This document shows, in pieces, positions 22,807 to 28,029 of a stretch of DNA of 64,000 nucleotides. Under the pieces are notes generated by a model. It did not search any database. It was not told the DNA's origin and worked only from the letters and a program-made list of their open reading frames with translations. The stretch lies in the NCBI RefSeq assembly GCF_024171605.1, contig NZ_JALKAA010000002.1, positions 558,001 to 622,000 on the forward strand, in the 5' to 3' direction. A program made the position numbers and the translations under genes. Each line of letters opens with the position of its first letter. Position 1 is the first letter of the stretch. The stretch comes from Pontibacter sp. HSC-36F09. Lineage in GTDB: Bacteria; Bacteroidota; Bacteroidia; Cytophagales; Hymenobacteraceae.

Positions 22807-23916
22807 ATGAAGATACCCCTTTACCCATCGACTATCCTGATGACTGCCGATACGGTTGGCAGCGTATGGACGTATGCACTGGAGCTAACAAGAGCCGTAG
22901 CAGCGCATGGCACCAATGTGGCGCTGGCGACCATGGGAGAGCCCATGAACGAGGAACAGCGCGCGCAGGTTGAAAGCATCTCCAACCTCACGGTATATGA
23001 AAGCGAGTATAAACTAGAGTGGATGGACTCCCCTTGGGAGGACGTAGAGAAAGCCGGTGAATGGCTGTTGCAACTGCGCGACCAGGTGCAGCCTGACATG
23101 ATCCACCTCAACCACTTGAGCTTCGGAAGCCTGGACTGGGGTAAACCCGTGCTGGCCGTGATCCATTCGTGTGTGCTGTCGTGGTGGCGCGCCGTGAAGC
23201 AGGAAGAAGCCCCGAAGAAGTGGAACAGGTATAGCGAGATGGTGCGCAAAGGACTGCAGGCAGTTGATATCGTGGTAGCGCCTACGCAGGCCATGATGCA
23301 CCAGGCAGAAGAACTGTACGGTCCGTTCAAACAGAGTGCCGTGGTGTATAACGGCCGCGGCCAGCAGTACTTTCAGTTCGGACGCAAAGAACCATTCGTC
23401 TTCAGCCTGGGCAGGGTGTGGGACGAAGCCAAGAACATTTCCATGCTGGCGCACATCGCCTCGGACCTGCAGTGGCCGGTTTATATAGCTGGCGAAGGCA
23501 AGCATCCGGAAACAGGGGAGTCTATGGAACTTGACAATGTGTATTTCCTGGGGCAGCTCACCAACAAAGAGGTGACCGACTGGCTATCCCGAGCGTCTAT
23601 CTATGCACTGCCTGCCAAATACGAGCCTTTCGGACTGACGGTGCTGGAGGCGGCCATGTCGGGTTGCGCGCTGGTAGTGGGAAAGACCGAAAGCATGGCC
23701 GAGGTATGGGGCAATGCCGCCCGGTACGTGGATCCGGCCAGTGCGGATGAACTGCGCGATACGATCGAGAATCTGATAGAAGACGAGTTTTGCCGCAACA
23801 TCATGGCTTGCCGTGCCGTGAAACGCTCCCATGGATACACTGCCGACCAGATGGCCCAGGACTACAGTTATCTGTACGGGCAGCTGGTCGAGGCACCGGT
23901 TTCGGTTTCTAAATGA
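22807..23916 (+). CDS. Glycosyltransferase family 4
   Basis: 369 residues of GT-B fold. N-terminal ILMTADTVGSVWTYALELTRAV, HLNHLSFGS and IHSCVLSWW; C-terminal nucleotide-sugar part with FSLGRVWDEAKN, GQLTNKEVTDWLSRASIYALP and the catalytic-type EPFGLTVLEAAMSGCALVVG near residue 275. It should transfer a sugar from an NDP-sugar to a cell-surface glycan or glycolipid. Followed after 40 bases by a CgeB-like glycosyltransferase, so likely a two-gene operon. Confidence 0.88.
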   Translation: MKIPLYPSTILMTADTVGSVWTYALELTRAVAAHGTNVALATMGEPMNEEQRAQVESISNLTVYESEYKLEWMDSPWEDVEKAGEWLLQLRDQVQPDMIHLNHLSFGSLDWGKPVLAVIHSCVLSWWRAVKQEEAPKKWNRYSEMVRKGLQAVDIVVAPTQAMMHQAEELYGPFKQSAVVYNGRGQQYFQFGRKEPFVFSLGRVWDEAKNISMLAHIASDLQWPVYIAGEGKHPETGESMELDNVYFLGQLTNKEVTDWLSRASIYALPAKYEPFGLTVLEAAMSGCALVVGKTESMAEVWGNAARYVDPASADELRDTIENLIEDEFCRNIMACRAVKRSHGYTADQMAQDYSYLYGQLVEAPVSVSK

Positions 23917-23956
23917 AAATCTAGCTTATCTTTACCAAAAATTGTCTGACAACGAC

Positions 23957-25051
23957 ATGAACATTGTTATACTCGGCCTTTCGATTACAACCTCCTGGGG
24001 CAATGGCCATGCCACTACTTACCGTAACCTGGTGCGGGCACTGCACGCCAATGCACACCGCATCCTGTTTCTGGAAAGAAAGCCAACGCAGCGTACTGCC
24101 CCCGATTTAGGCGAGCCTGACTTTTGCCAGCTCGGCACATATGCCTCGTTCGAGCAGCTGCGCCAGTACACGGAGCAGGTGCGGGAGGCTGATATGGTGA
24201 TCGTGGGCTCCAGCCTGGCGGAAGGCAATGCCATCGGGAAATGGGTGATCGAGACGGCAAAGGGCATCAAAGCTTTCTATGATCTGGATGCCCCCGCTAC
24301 CCTTACCGAACTGGAAGGCCAGGGACCGACTTACCTCAATGCGAGCCTGATACCTGCCTTCGACCTATACCTGTCCTGCACAGGCGGTCCGGCGCTGGAG
24401 CTGTTTGAACAGAAATATGGTGCCCGCATGGCACGGCCGCTGTATTTTTCAGTCGACCCGACACTATACCACCAGGAGTACCGCGAGATAAAATGGGACC
24501 TGGGTTACCTGGGCACTTATTCAGAGGACAGGCAGTTGACTTTGCAGAAACTGATGGTGGATGCCGCGGCACAGTGGCCCGCCGGACGTTTTGCGGTGGC
24601 GGGCACCAAATATCCCGAAGACATGGGCTGGCCCGGCAACATCACTATGCTCCATCACCTGACGCCAGTTGAGCACCGCGATTTCTTCAATAGCCAGCGC
24701 TTTGCCCTGAGCATCGCCCGCGCCGGCACCAGCAGGTTTGGCTACACCCCGAGCATGCGACTTTTTGAAGCGGCCGCCTGCTGCACACCCGTCATCTCCG
24801 ACTATTGGGAAGGTATAGAGACGCTGTTCGAGCCTGAGTCTGAGATTCTGATCACCAAGAGTGCCTCCGAAACGCTCCGTTATCTCCGCGAGATCTGTAC
24901 ATCTGAGCGGAAGGCGATCGGTATGCGGGCGCGTCGCAAGGTGATGGCGCACCACACGGCCGCACATCGCGCCCACGAGCTGGAAACCTACGTCGGGGAG
25001 CTCATGACTCTGGATACTTCCAATGAAGAACAGCTGGAGGTGATCAGCTGA
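23957..25051 (+). CDS. CgeB-like glycosyltransferase
   Basis: 364 residues from the ATG at 23957 (MNIVILGLSITTSWGNG). The frame extends 42 codons upstream, but that stretch overlaps the end of the previous gene and has no protein-like pattern. N-terminal Rossmann part, then LGYLGTYSEDRQLTLQ and a C-terminal block SIARAGTSRFGYTPSMRLFEAAACCTPVISDYWEG as in CgeB/GT1-like proteins. Probably works with the upstream GT4 enzyme on the same surface glycan. A weak -7-like TATCTTTA lies upstream at 23928-23935. Confidence 0.82.
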   Translation: MNIVILGLSITTSWGNGHATTYRNLVRALHANAHRILFLERKPTQRTAPDLGEPDFCQLGTYASFEQLRQYTEQVREADMVIVGSSLAEGNAIGKWVIETAKGIKAFYDLDAPATLTELEGQGPTYLNASLIPAFDLYLSCTGGPALELFEQKYGARMARPLYFSVDPTLYHQEYREIKWDLGYLGTYSEDRQLTLQKLMVDAAAQWPAGRFAVAGTKYPEDMGWPGNITMLHHLTPVEHRDFFNSQRFALSIARAGTSRFGYTPSMRLFEAAACCTPVISDYWEGIETLFEPESEILITKSASETLRYLREICTSERKAIGMRARRKVMAHHTAAHRAHELETYVGELMTLDTSNEEQLEVIS

Positions 25052-25116: not shown

Positions 25117-25155
25117 GTGCAGTAGCCACTGCTCCGCACTGATAATTTGAAAACA

Positions 25156-25710
25156 ATGAAGAAAGGATTAGAACGCTGGAAAACACTCAAGTCGGAAGTA
25201 GTCTTTAACCACAAGTGGTATACCTTGCGCCGCGACCACGTGGAGCTGCCCAACGGTCACCAGATGGATGATTATTTTGTAAGCGTGCGCCCCGATGTGG
25301 TGCTCACTTTTCCGATCACCGAAGATGGAAACGTGCTTTTTGTGCGGCAATACAAACACGCTGCCAGCGATATTTTTATCGAGTTGCCGGGTGGCGTAAT
25401 TGATGCGCACGAAACCGACCCGCAGGAAGCAGCCCGTCGCGAGCTGCTGGAAGAAACCGGCTATACCTCCGACGACGTAGAGTTGCTCCTAGAAGTGATC
25501 GACAACCCGACAAAGGACACTAACAAAATCTACTTCTTCCTGATGCGCAACGCGCGCGAAGTGGCTGCCCAGGACCTGGACGAGAGCGAGCACATCGAAG
25601 TGCTGAAAGTGCCCCTCCACGAAGTCGAGCAAATGGTGCTCAACGGGCAAGTGCATGTGTCGGGCTCGGTGGCACTCTGCCTGCTGGCCCTCCGCAAACT
25701 GGGGCTTTAG
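25156..25710 (+). CDS. Nudix hydrolase, ADP-ribose pyrophosphatase type
   Basis: 184 residues from the ATG at 25156; the frame can be extended by three codons to a TTG at 25147, which lies in a TAATTTG box-like stretch and is less likely. Complete Nudix box GX5EX7REUXEEXGU: GVIDAHETDPQEAARRELLEETGY near residue 80, split here as GGVIDAHETDPQ and AARRELLEETGY. FVRQYKHAASD before the box is typical of ADP-ribose/GDP-mannose pyrophosphatases. Cytosolic. Its stop codon overlaps the stop of the convergent aminotransferase-GRAS gene by four bases. Confidence 0.9.
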   Translation: MKKGLERWKTLKSEVVFNHKWYTLRRDHVELPNGHQMDDYFVSVRPDVVLTFPITEDGNVLFVRQYKHAASDIFIELPGGVIDAHETDPQEAARRELLEETGYTSDDVELLLEVIDNPTKDTNKIYFFLMRNAREVAAQDLDESEHIEVLKVPLHEVEQMVLNGQVHVSGSVALCLLALRKLGL

Positions 25711-27860
25711 TCAGCTGGCTGCCAGGCAGTGGCTGCGATGATGTTGGTGTTTTTCCAATGCAAGGTATAGCCAGCCGTATGCGCAGCCAGGCTGAACTGC
25801 GGGTGCAGGTCCAACTCCTCCTGGATCTGGGCTGCTGTCACCAGAACCGGAGCGGGTTTAAAACCATTGCGTATGAGGCGGTGCTGCCAGGCATCGAGGC
25901 GTTCGTGGCGCTCCACGCGGTCACTTCCTTCAAAGGCCACCACATTAAGGATCTCTCTTCCAAAAAACTCCTGCTCGATCACGCGTCGCTCCGGCATATC
26001 GGCAGGCAGCAGAGTGTCAAGCACATCAAACACGGTGTGGTAGTGGCGCAGTGACTCCCGCAGACGGGGCAGAAAATCGAGTCGGTTGTGCTCGGAGTCT
26101 GGTTCGGTGAGGGTGAGCAGCTCAGGACGCAGCGTTCGGATCTGCTCCAGTACCCGGTCGCGTTGGTCAGGTATAGCCACTAGTTCGTCGGCAAGGTGAT
26201 GCAGGGTGAGTGCGGCATTCACGATCAAGGTATGGGAAGGGTCGATCTCCAGTGTTTGCAGGTCGAAGTCTTCGAGGCGGGTGGCGACATAGGTATAGCT
26301 GAAGTCTAGACCCAGACGCCCGGCATGCGCTGCCAGGCGAGCGCCGGTAGCCTGCAGCTTGTAAGTCGGGTCATCGTTGCTGTTGTCCGGTATATCGATG
26401 CCGGTGAGGTGCAGGGTAGGGCGCTCCCCAGGTATAGCCGCCAATAACTCCATTAAATGGAACCATTGCAAACCGCTACCTATACCCAGGTCGAGCATGT
26501 ATACCGATGACTTTCCGGCAATGGTTGGCAGGATGGAGTGGTTGGCAAAGCGGTGCCCGAAAGTGACCAGAGGCGTGGCCGTTACCAGTACATTGAAGGC
26601 CGCGATCATGTCCATCACTCCAAAATTAGAAGCATATAGATTGCCGGAGTCCTTGGTTATACCTTGCTGGCAGCGCAATGCCAGGGCACGCGCAAAAGCC
26701 TGCGCAATGCGGCCCTCTGCGTCTGTTTGCCCGGCCGCTCTGTCCAGCAGATCGTGTGCAACGGCTGCCGCCTCTTCAGGCTGATCCTGTACCAGGTAGC
26801 CCAAGTCAAGCACTTGTGCCAGAAGGGGTTGTGTGGCGTATACGCGGGAGGGGTGTAGCAATTCTTGTAGCATTTGTAGGAGGTATAGCTGGTGCTCGTC
26901 CGGGCCTATGGTCAGGCGCAAGGTATGGTGGTCGGCACGGCGCACCAGGATATGGTTTGCGAGTAAGTAGTTGTGAATTTCATCGGCGCTGTAGCCGCCA
27001 GCATCCAGTAGCAGAAAATTACCCTGTGATGGCCAGAACTGCACGCCCATTCTATGCAGTGCCTGTTCCAGCTTGCTTTTCCCGATCTGTGTCGCCTGCA
27101 GCGTCTTATACAGGAAGTGCTCATCCTCCAGGGCAGCCAGGGCAGCGACCTGAGCCAGCTGGTTCACATTGTAGGGCTGTTTCACTTCCATTACCTGCTC
27201 AATCAGGTGTTGCTGCGCGACCATATACCCGATGCGAACAGAGGCGAGTCCGTAGGCTTTGGAGAAAGTGCGCAGCACGACCAGGTTAGGATAGCGCGAC
27301 AGCATGGCCACTGCGTCGGCACAATCGGGAGCGGTAACATACTCGATGTAAGCCTCGTCGACTACGACGGTAACATGTGGCGGCAGCGAGTCGAGTACCT
27401 GCTCCAGTTCAGTGCTTGTCAGGTAAGTCCCGGTCGGGTTATTGGGGTTGCAGAGAAAGCAGAGCCGCGTAGAAGGCCCCACTTGACGTTTTAAAGCAGC
27501 AACATCGATCCGATAGCTACTGGTTAGCGGAATTTCCGAGCAGGGAATGCGCAGCGCGCGGGCTTCCTGGCAGTACAGCGGGTAGGAAGGCGTGAAAGTC
27601 AGCACTTCCCCGTCCCTGTCATGACCACAAAAACGGCGCACCAGGAGCGAAATCAGCTCTGCCGAGCCGCTTCCCACCACAATTTCGTCAGCCCGTACCC
27701 CTAACTTGGTGGCCAGGGCATGTCGCAGGTCGGAGGCGTCGGGGGTGGGGTAACCGTGCACGCTGTTCAAGGCTTGTTGCATGGCGGCAAGCACCTGCGG
27801 TGATGATCCGAACAGGTTTTCGTTGGTGGCAGCTTGATAAGGGAGGCGTTTGGTTTCCAT
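25707..27860 (-). CDS. HisC-like aminotransferase fused to a GRAS domain
   Basis: 717 residues. Residues ~1-340 form a fold-type I aminotransferase of the histidinol-phosphate group: CNPNNPTGTY, VVVDEAYIEY, the PLP lysine in RTFSKAYGLASVRIGY (about residue 200) and the C-terminal arginine in TLRLTIGP. From ~345 a GRAS domain follows: a helical leucine-rich part (DQPEEAAAVAHDLLDRAAGQ), VHIID-like YMLDLGIGSGLQW near residue 455, PFYRE-like RESLRHYHTVFDVLD and RRVIEQEFFGREILN, and SAW-like IAATAWQP at the very end. The DLGIGSG loop is an intact SAM-binding motif, unlike most plant GRAS proteins. Bacterial GRAS proteins are known but few; substrate and role are unknown. Divergent from a MarR gene. 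Confidence 0.85.
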   Translation of the reverse strand: METKRLPYQAATNENLFGSSPQVLAAMQQALNSVHGYPTPDASDLRHALATKLGVRADEIVVGSGSAELISLLVRRFCGHDRDGEVLTFTPSYPLYCQEARALRIPCSEIPLTSSYRIDVAALKRQVGPSTRLCFLCNPNNPTGTYLTSTELEQVLDSLPPHVTVVVDEAYIEYVTAPDCADAVAMLSRYPNLVVLRTFSKAYGLASVRIGYMVAQQHLIEQVMEVKQPYNVNQLAQVAALAALEDEHFLYKTLQATQIGKSKLEQALHRMGVQFWPSQGNFLLLDAGGYSADEIHNYLLANHILVRRADHHTLRLTIGPDEHQLYLLQMLQELLHPSRVYATQPLLAQVLDLGYLVQDQPEEAAAVAHDLLDRAAGQTDAEGRIAQAFARALALRCQQGITKDSGNLYASNFGVMDMIAAFNVLVTATPLVTFGHRFANHSILPTIAGKSSVYMLDLGIGSGLQWFHLMELLAAIPGERPTLHLTGIDIPDNSNDDPTYKLQATGARLAAHAGRLGLDFSYTYVATRLEDFDLQTLEIDPSHTLIVNAALTLHHLADELVAIPDQRDRVLEQIRTLRPELLTLTEPDSEHNRLDFLPRLRESLRHYHTVFDVLDTLLPADMPERRVIEQEFFGREILNVVAFEGSDRVERHERLDAWQHRLIRNGFKPAPVLVTAAQIQEELDLHPQFSLAAHTAGYTLHWKNTNIIAATAWQPAD

Positions 27861-27980: not shown

Positions 27981-28029
27981 TTCCGCTTGTCAAAGTAACT
28001 AAATGTTTGGAAATGTTGTATATACAATT

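Follow-up and report, generated by a model that had tools for sequence, protein, structure and literature searches.

The 64,000-nucleotide window analysed here (Pontibacter sp. HSC-36F09, contig NZ_JALKAA010000002.1, positions 558,001 to 622,000; "the window" means this whole stretch) carries a gene that joins a HisC-type aminotransferase, dependent on pyridoxal phosphate (PLP), to a GRAS domain. We think it somewhat probable that the product is a bifunctional enzyme in which transamination and methylation of one small amino or oxo acid would be coupled, because both cofactor motifs are kept, both halves are constrained and the same pairing recurs elsewhere as neighbouring genes. The fusion is undescribed in the open-access literature searched and is a novel arrangement of already known families. 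In the same literature, as far as titles and the beginnings of abstracts go, no substrate is reported for a bacterial GRAS protein; the fused and recurrently paired aminotransferase suggests that this substrate is an amino or oxo acid, and the fusion offers one protein for expression and assay.

The fusion gene and its two halves

A preliminary description of the locus took the two domains to be one protein, and the gene bears this out. Among 50 genomes of the genus, 22 have a GRAS match, in every case within an open frame of 716-774 aa, and the aminotransferase half is present in all 22 of these genes; the genome of the window has a single GRAS gene. Both halves are under strong purifying selection: across 12 fusions the median pairwise ratio of nonsynonymous to synonymous substitution rates (dN/dS) is 0.068 for the aminotransferase half (37 usable of 66 pairs) and 0.080 for the GRAS half (42 of 66), while constraint is looser in the linker between them (residues 337-358: 0.165; 49 of 66). 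The single frame in 22/50 genomes, together with this selection, rules out a frameshift or an assembly mis-join. A scan of named genomes, made with Pontibacter-derived patterns and hardly sampling other phyla, gave 18 hits, all with the fusion: 17 are from Pontibacter (four "sp.", one uncultured) and one is from Botryobacter. The AlphaFold model of the whole protein, from an alignment of 18 close relatives, has a predicted local distance difference test score (pLDDT) of 83.6 and a predicted template modelling score (pTM) of 0.82.

The assignment of the C-terminal half to GRAS also stands. It scores 279.8 bits with Pfam PF03514, where the cut-off is 27; residues 359-714 cover profile positions 15-374 of 374, and its matches in the Protein Data Bank are plant GRAS proteins, DELLA best. 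Alignment to two DELLA proteins (31% identity) places the VHIID, PFYRE and SAW motifs in family order, with the paired segments SVYMLDLGIGSGLQW/RVHVIDFGLKQGMQW, RESLRHYHTVFDVLD/TEALHYYSSLFDSLE and IIAATAWQ/LIATSAWK. The AlphaFold model of this half (pLDDT 80.8, pTM 0.81; alignment of 19 close relatives) predicts a helical cap and an alpha/beta, methyltransferase-like core. In a Foldseek search with this model the twelve best matches are plant GRAS chains (SCL3, template modelling (TM) score 0.84/0.85); the SAM methyltransferases Coq5, PsoF, histamine N-methyltransferase and nicotinamide N-methyltransferase follow as weaker matches, with TM scores of about 0.4 when normalised to the query. Pfam, the Protein Data Bank search and Foldseek rule out another methyltransferase family for this half. 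The fusion therefore shares with plant GRAS proteins (DELLA, SCARECROW, SHORT-ROOT, SCL3, SCL7) a full-length family match, motif order and fold; those proteins act as transcription regulators, whereas the GRAS half described here would be an enzyme.

A second difference from plant GRAS lies in the hallmark of S-adenosylmethionine (SAM) methyltransferases, a glycine-rich motif I and an acidic residue after strand 2, both of which the bacterial half keeps, as the preliminary description had proposed for the glycine loop. Residues D457, G459, G461, G463 and D489 are invariant in 18/18 aligned fusions (18 of the 22 were aligned). In a wider alignment of 32 bacterial sequences and two DELLAs (DELLA1, RGA), all 32 bacterial proteins have the three glycines and an acidic residue at position 489 (D in 21, E in 11), and position 457 holds D in 28 sequences and N in the other 4; in the DELLAs, K or N stands at 461 and G replaces the acidic residue at 489. 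Three further residues, H555, P587 and E636, are invariant in the bacterial set and changed in both DELLAs, and the pair H554-H555 is unvaried in 32/32 bacterial sequences, the DELLAs altering its second His. The motif evidence favours the use of SAM by GRAS proteins in bacteria. Zhang, Iyer and Aravind (2012, Bioinformatics 28:2407) are said to have predicted that bacterial GRAS proteins are Rossmann-fold methyltransferases. The fusion would likewise be of this type, with the difference that here a HisC-type aminotransferase is fused or adjoining.

The N-terminal half matches Aminotran_1_2 of Pfam (188 bits, residues 11-323) and the NCBIfam hisC model TIGR01141 (residues 11-333, profile positions 26-348 of 349), and its matches in the Protein Data Bank are HisC-type aminotransferases. 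The Schiff-base lysine and the Asp, Tyr and Arg residues expected of a class I/II PLP aminotransferase are all found: K201, which we take to be that lysine, and D168, Y171, R209 and R315, presumably cofactor residues, are invariant in 18/18 aligned fusions. The earlier view of an intact catalytic lysine thus holds, and that of a complete aminotransferase does not. The fused enzymes begin about 10 residues ahead of the NEN motif, and in 11/11 aligned fusions they are without the N-terminal arm, which in HisC covers the active site of the partner subunit and which is present in the hisC beside hisD in the genome of the window.

Separate aminotransferase-GRAS gene pairs

GRAS is rare in the phylum. 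It is found over the Pfam cut-off in 4/395 genomes drawn from the phylum (that of the window included), in 22/390 of the order (8 from its own genus), in 1/244 and 1/245 of two other classes and in 19/200 of one family, f11. Elsewhere in the phylum, outside the genus, we collected 29 copies over the cut-off in 28 genomes, leaving aside a match in G646 that falls under it. A search of plasmids gave just two GRAS genes, both from Skermanella (L079:8617-9735 and L080:8476-9594) and both adjoining a gene for a PAS-domain protein, and a search of viral contigs with Pontibacter-derived patterns matched 46 stretches, with no relative among them.

In 11/29 GRAS copies outside the genus, the directly adjoining gene on the same strand encodes an aminotransferase, and both gene orders occur. 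The flanks inspected spanned about 3-7 kilobases (kb) for the first 16 copies collected and 1.5 kb for the remaining 13. In G173 a HisC-type aminotransferase gene precedes GRAS with an ATGA overlap; in G249 GRAS comes first and the ATG of the aminotransferase lies one base past its stop; and in f11 the order GRAS then aminotransferase is seen in 9/20 copies (G1020, G1049, G1071, G1108, G1135, G1141, G1145, G1146, G1161). Each of the four partners scanned (G173, G249, G1049, G1020) scores best with the NCBIfam model hisC TIGR01141, but only that of G173 exceeds its cut-off.

A tree of 45 aminotransferases, with several forks open and long branches flagged, does not recover a single clade of GRAS-linked enzymes. 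These stand in three places (the fusions; G249 with f11; G173), and the trait needs 3 changes, against a mean of 13.4 when shuffled, of which starred branches force 2. The partners come from two or three lineages, and this tree probably reflects either repeated recruitment of partners or the divergence of an old link.

Some GRAS genes have other neighbours. A second subfamily in f11 adjoins a phosphotriesterase-family gene (L178, L181, L189, L082, L084, L087 and L024, at about 0.4-3.6 kb in each), and G1141 holds one GRAS copy of each subfamily, one linked to an aminotransferase and the other to a phosphotriesterase. Six of the GRAS genes that have no aminotransferase beside them adjoin a gene for a protein of 129-163 aa (L106:7111-7500, L105:8159-8548, L104:6914-7306, L098:6168-6569, L099:6809-7210, L096:8482-8973). 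These six proteins are mutually homologous (34-95% identity), the three scanned have no Pfam match at 1e-3, and a distant relative (18-24%) adjoins hisB in the genome of the window (L109:5750-6157).

Proposed chemistry, its alternatives and the plant connection

In regard to chemistry, the aminotransferase half would interconvert an amino acid and a 2-oxo acid using PLP, and the GRAS half would bind SAM and methylate the substrate of the aminotransferase. In the version we prefer, the oxo acid would be C-methylated and then aminated again to give a methylated amino acid, although in this specific form the proposal is doubtful, and N- or O-methylation would be the alternative. A functional precedent exists in streptonigrin biosynthesis, where the aminotransferase StnR and the SAM-dependent C-methyltransferase StnQ1 act on one oxo acid in the conversion of tryptophan to beta-methyltryptophan (PMC4742848). 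The fusion may resemble this pair in combining a PLP aminotransferase with a SAM C-methyltransferase for one amino or oxo acid; StnR and StnQ1 are separate proteins, however, and the likeness, which is not drawn from sequence, is an analogy of function only. The recurrent pairing of separate aminotransferase and GRAS genes elsewhere strengthens the proposal, already put forward in the preliminary description, that one molecule is modified twice, but the chemistry is still what we infer: use of SAM, a common substrate and the order of steps are predictions.

Several observations weigh against a coupled enzyme. GRAS is absent from 28/50 genomes of the genus, and the genes flanking the fusion indicate no pathway. 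Outside the genus, 18/29 GRAS copies have no aminotransferase neighbour within flanks of 1.5 to about 7 kb; 7/20 f11 copies adjoin the phosphotriesterase-family gene instead and 4/20 adjoin neither, and an aminotransferase neighbour is seen beside 0/2 of the Skermanella plasmid genes. Because the GRAS-linked aminotransferases are spread over several places in the tree and make up no single clade, their substrates may differ. Enzymes of the StnQ1 type are not known to be GRAS proteins. Both structural models were built on shallow alignments. Finally, the fused aminotransferase scores over the hisC equivalog cut-off (293.6 bits against 276.55), and in G249 the GRAS-linked enzyme is the genome's top HisC-like match (239.8 bits, under the cut-off; the next has 129) and might serve histidine synthesis.

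Alternatively, the GRAS domain may be a sensor that binds SAM or another ligand and tunes the aminotransferase without methyl transfer. In favour of this, plant GRAS domains of the same fold are reported to be without SAM-binding motifs, and calorimetry in the SHR-SCR study saw no binding of SAM or S-adenosylhomocysteine (PMC5873383). Yet the glycines and acidic residue lost in the two DELLAs are kept in every bacterial GRAS protein aligned, together with H555, P587 and E636, a retention that would fit catalysis better, and 18/29 GRAS copies outside the genus have no aminotransferase beside them. We consider a sensor unlikely.

Less probable still is that two independent enzymes were fused for co-regulation only and act on different substrates of one pathway. 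The looser constraint on the linker and the occurrence of the halves as separate genes in other bacteria are what such a history might leave; however, a fusion, or genes that adjoin closely in either order, would be typical of consecutive steps, and we regard this explanation as quite unlikely.

The remaining alternative sees in the aminotransferase half a second, functional HisC (histidinol-phosphate aminotransferase), to which the GRAS half would be attached as a chance passenger. The fusion shares with HisC its subfamily, the catalytic lysine and the PLP motifs; its score over the TIGR01141 cut-off fits a HisC, as does retention of R307 and R315, which we take as the equivalents of R322 and R335 of Escherichia coli HisC. 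It differs in the absent N-terminal arm, in the attached GRAS domain and in its location: the same genome has a separate HisC that scores better (366 bits) between hisD and hisB, so that the fusion, which lies elsewhere, is neither in the histidine operon nor the sole copy. Because of that better-scoring hisC, histidine synthesis is not a likely role of the fusion, and the fused aminotransferase is probably not the histidine-pathway HisC. A better HisC than the GRAS-linked one is also present in G1049, G1071 and G1020, while G173 has two nearly equal candidates (292.4 and 290.4 bits). The first of the two Arg residues is missing from the linked enzymes of G173, G249, G1049, G1071 and G1020, but Lys stands there in 4/29 unlinked HisC-type rows as well, which makes this a weak argument. 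With aminotransferase partners recurring beside GRAS genes elsewhere, a second HisC with a passenger is very unlikely.

DELLA proteins are repressors of gibberellin signalling, and the coupled enzyme may bear on their origin. Plant GRAS proteins, DELLA included, are thought to derive from bacterial GRAS genes (PMC9942845; PMC6232258). In our GRAS tree (34 sequences, a limited sample, midpoint-rooted), 14 fusions, G173 and the two DELLAs stand apart from 17 other bacterial GRAS proteins at 99/99; the order inside this group is not settled, long branches are flagged, and unlike residue make-up is flagged for G173, G249, G778 and Skermanella. Scores of phmmer to plant DELLA1 (9x5i) agree with the grouping: 151 bits for the fused protein and 135 for G173, against 47 for G249 and 56 for Skermanella. 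Because the fused and the aminotransferase-adjacent G173 proteins group with the plant DELLAs, we tentatively raise a reading that is itself improbable, namely that the bacterial methyltransferase ancestral to plant GRAS and DELLA acted on an amino or oxo acid together with an aminotransferase of the HisC type, and that the plant cavity would be a relic of its pocket. If the GRAS half is a methyltransferase, it would give a first handle on the contents of that ancestral pocket.

The divergent marR gene and other neighbours

The preliminary description also suggested that a divergent MarR-family gene controls expression of the fusion and asked whether it is always adjacent. A divergent marR accompanies 14/22 fusions, and an ortholog (at least 62% identity) occurs in 3/28 fusion-less genomes; MarR as a fixed partner is ruled out, although the association is marked (Fisher p 0.0002, not corrected for relatedness). 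Where marR is present, a conserved palindrome between the genes supports control. The sequence TTGTATATACAA is exact in the window and in 10/12 marR-bearing loci, with one mismatch in L068 and three in L072. In the six loci that lack an adjacent marR, the best match in the 500 bases upstream of the fusion has one mismatch (2 loci), two (3) or three (1). The genome has 3 exact copies, against 0.2 expected from the base composition of the window and 0 for a reversed control, and one of them precedes a MarR paralog (41% identity) by 34 bases. Its conservation in the loci, its over-representation and its presence before this paralog make TTGTATATACAA a good candidate for the operator that this MarR subfamily uses. 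The copy in the window is nearer marR (40 bases) than the fusion (155 bases). Thus, in one part of Pontibacter, the divergent MarR is probably a repressor that acts on the fusion through this palindrome. A consensus scan gave 3 promoter-like sites against 2.0 expected (standard deviation 1.4) and 0 terminator-like sites against 3.1 expected.

Table 1. Positions in the window of the fusion, its motifs and its neighbours.
Feature	Position	Strand	Basis and remarks
Aminotransferase-GRAS fusion gene	25707..27860	-	717 codons and stop, no internal stops, single open reading frame
HisC-type PLP aminotransferase core, residues 11-333	26862..27830	-	Pfam, NCBIfam, alignments
PLP lysine K201	27258-27260	-	alignment of fusions
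GRAS domain, residues 359-714	25719..26786	-	Pfam, Protein Data Bank search, fold match
SAM-binding-type glycine motif DLGIGSG, residues 457-463	26472..26492	-	alignments
Acidic partner D489 of the glycine motif	26394-26396	-	alignments
HH pair H554-H555	26196..26201	-	alignment of bacterial GRAS and two DELLAs
Divergent MarR-family regulator gene, 150 aa	28068..28520	+	Pfam; beside 14/22 fusions
Perfect palindrome TTGTATATACAA, candidate MarR operator	28016..28027	.	between fusion and marR
Convergent NUDIX hydrolase gene	25147..25710	+	Pfam; present in 16/18 fetched fusion loci; functional link not apparent

The third genomic copy of TTGTATATACAA, at L145:1501-1512, lies between two genes that by eye are Dps-like and LysR-type, which may tie this MarR subfamily to stress genes. 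On the other side of the fusion, its stop-codon end and that of the NUDIX gene overlap by 4 bases (25707-25710). Ahead of the NUDIX gene lie two glycosyltransferase genes (window 22807-25051), one of group 1 and one of the Glyco_trans_1_2 type, the latter present in three copies in L070, L073, L074 and L077.

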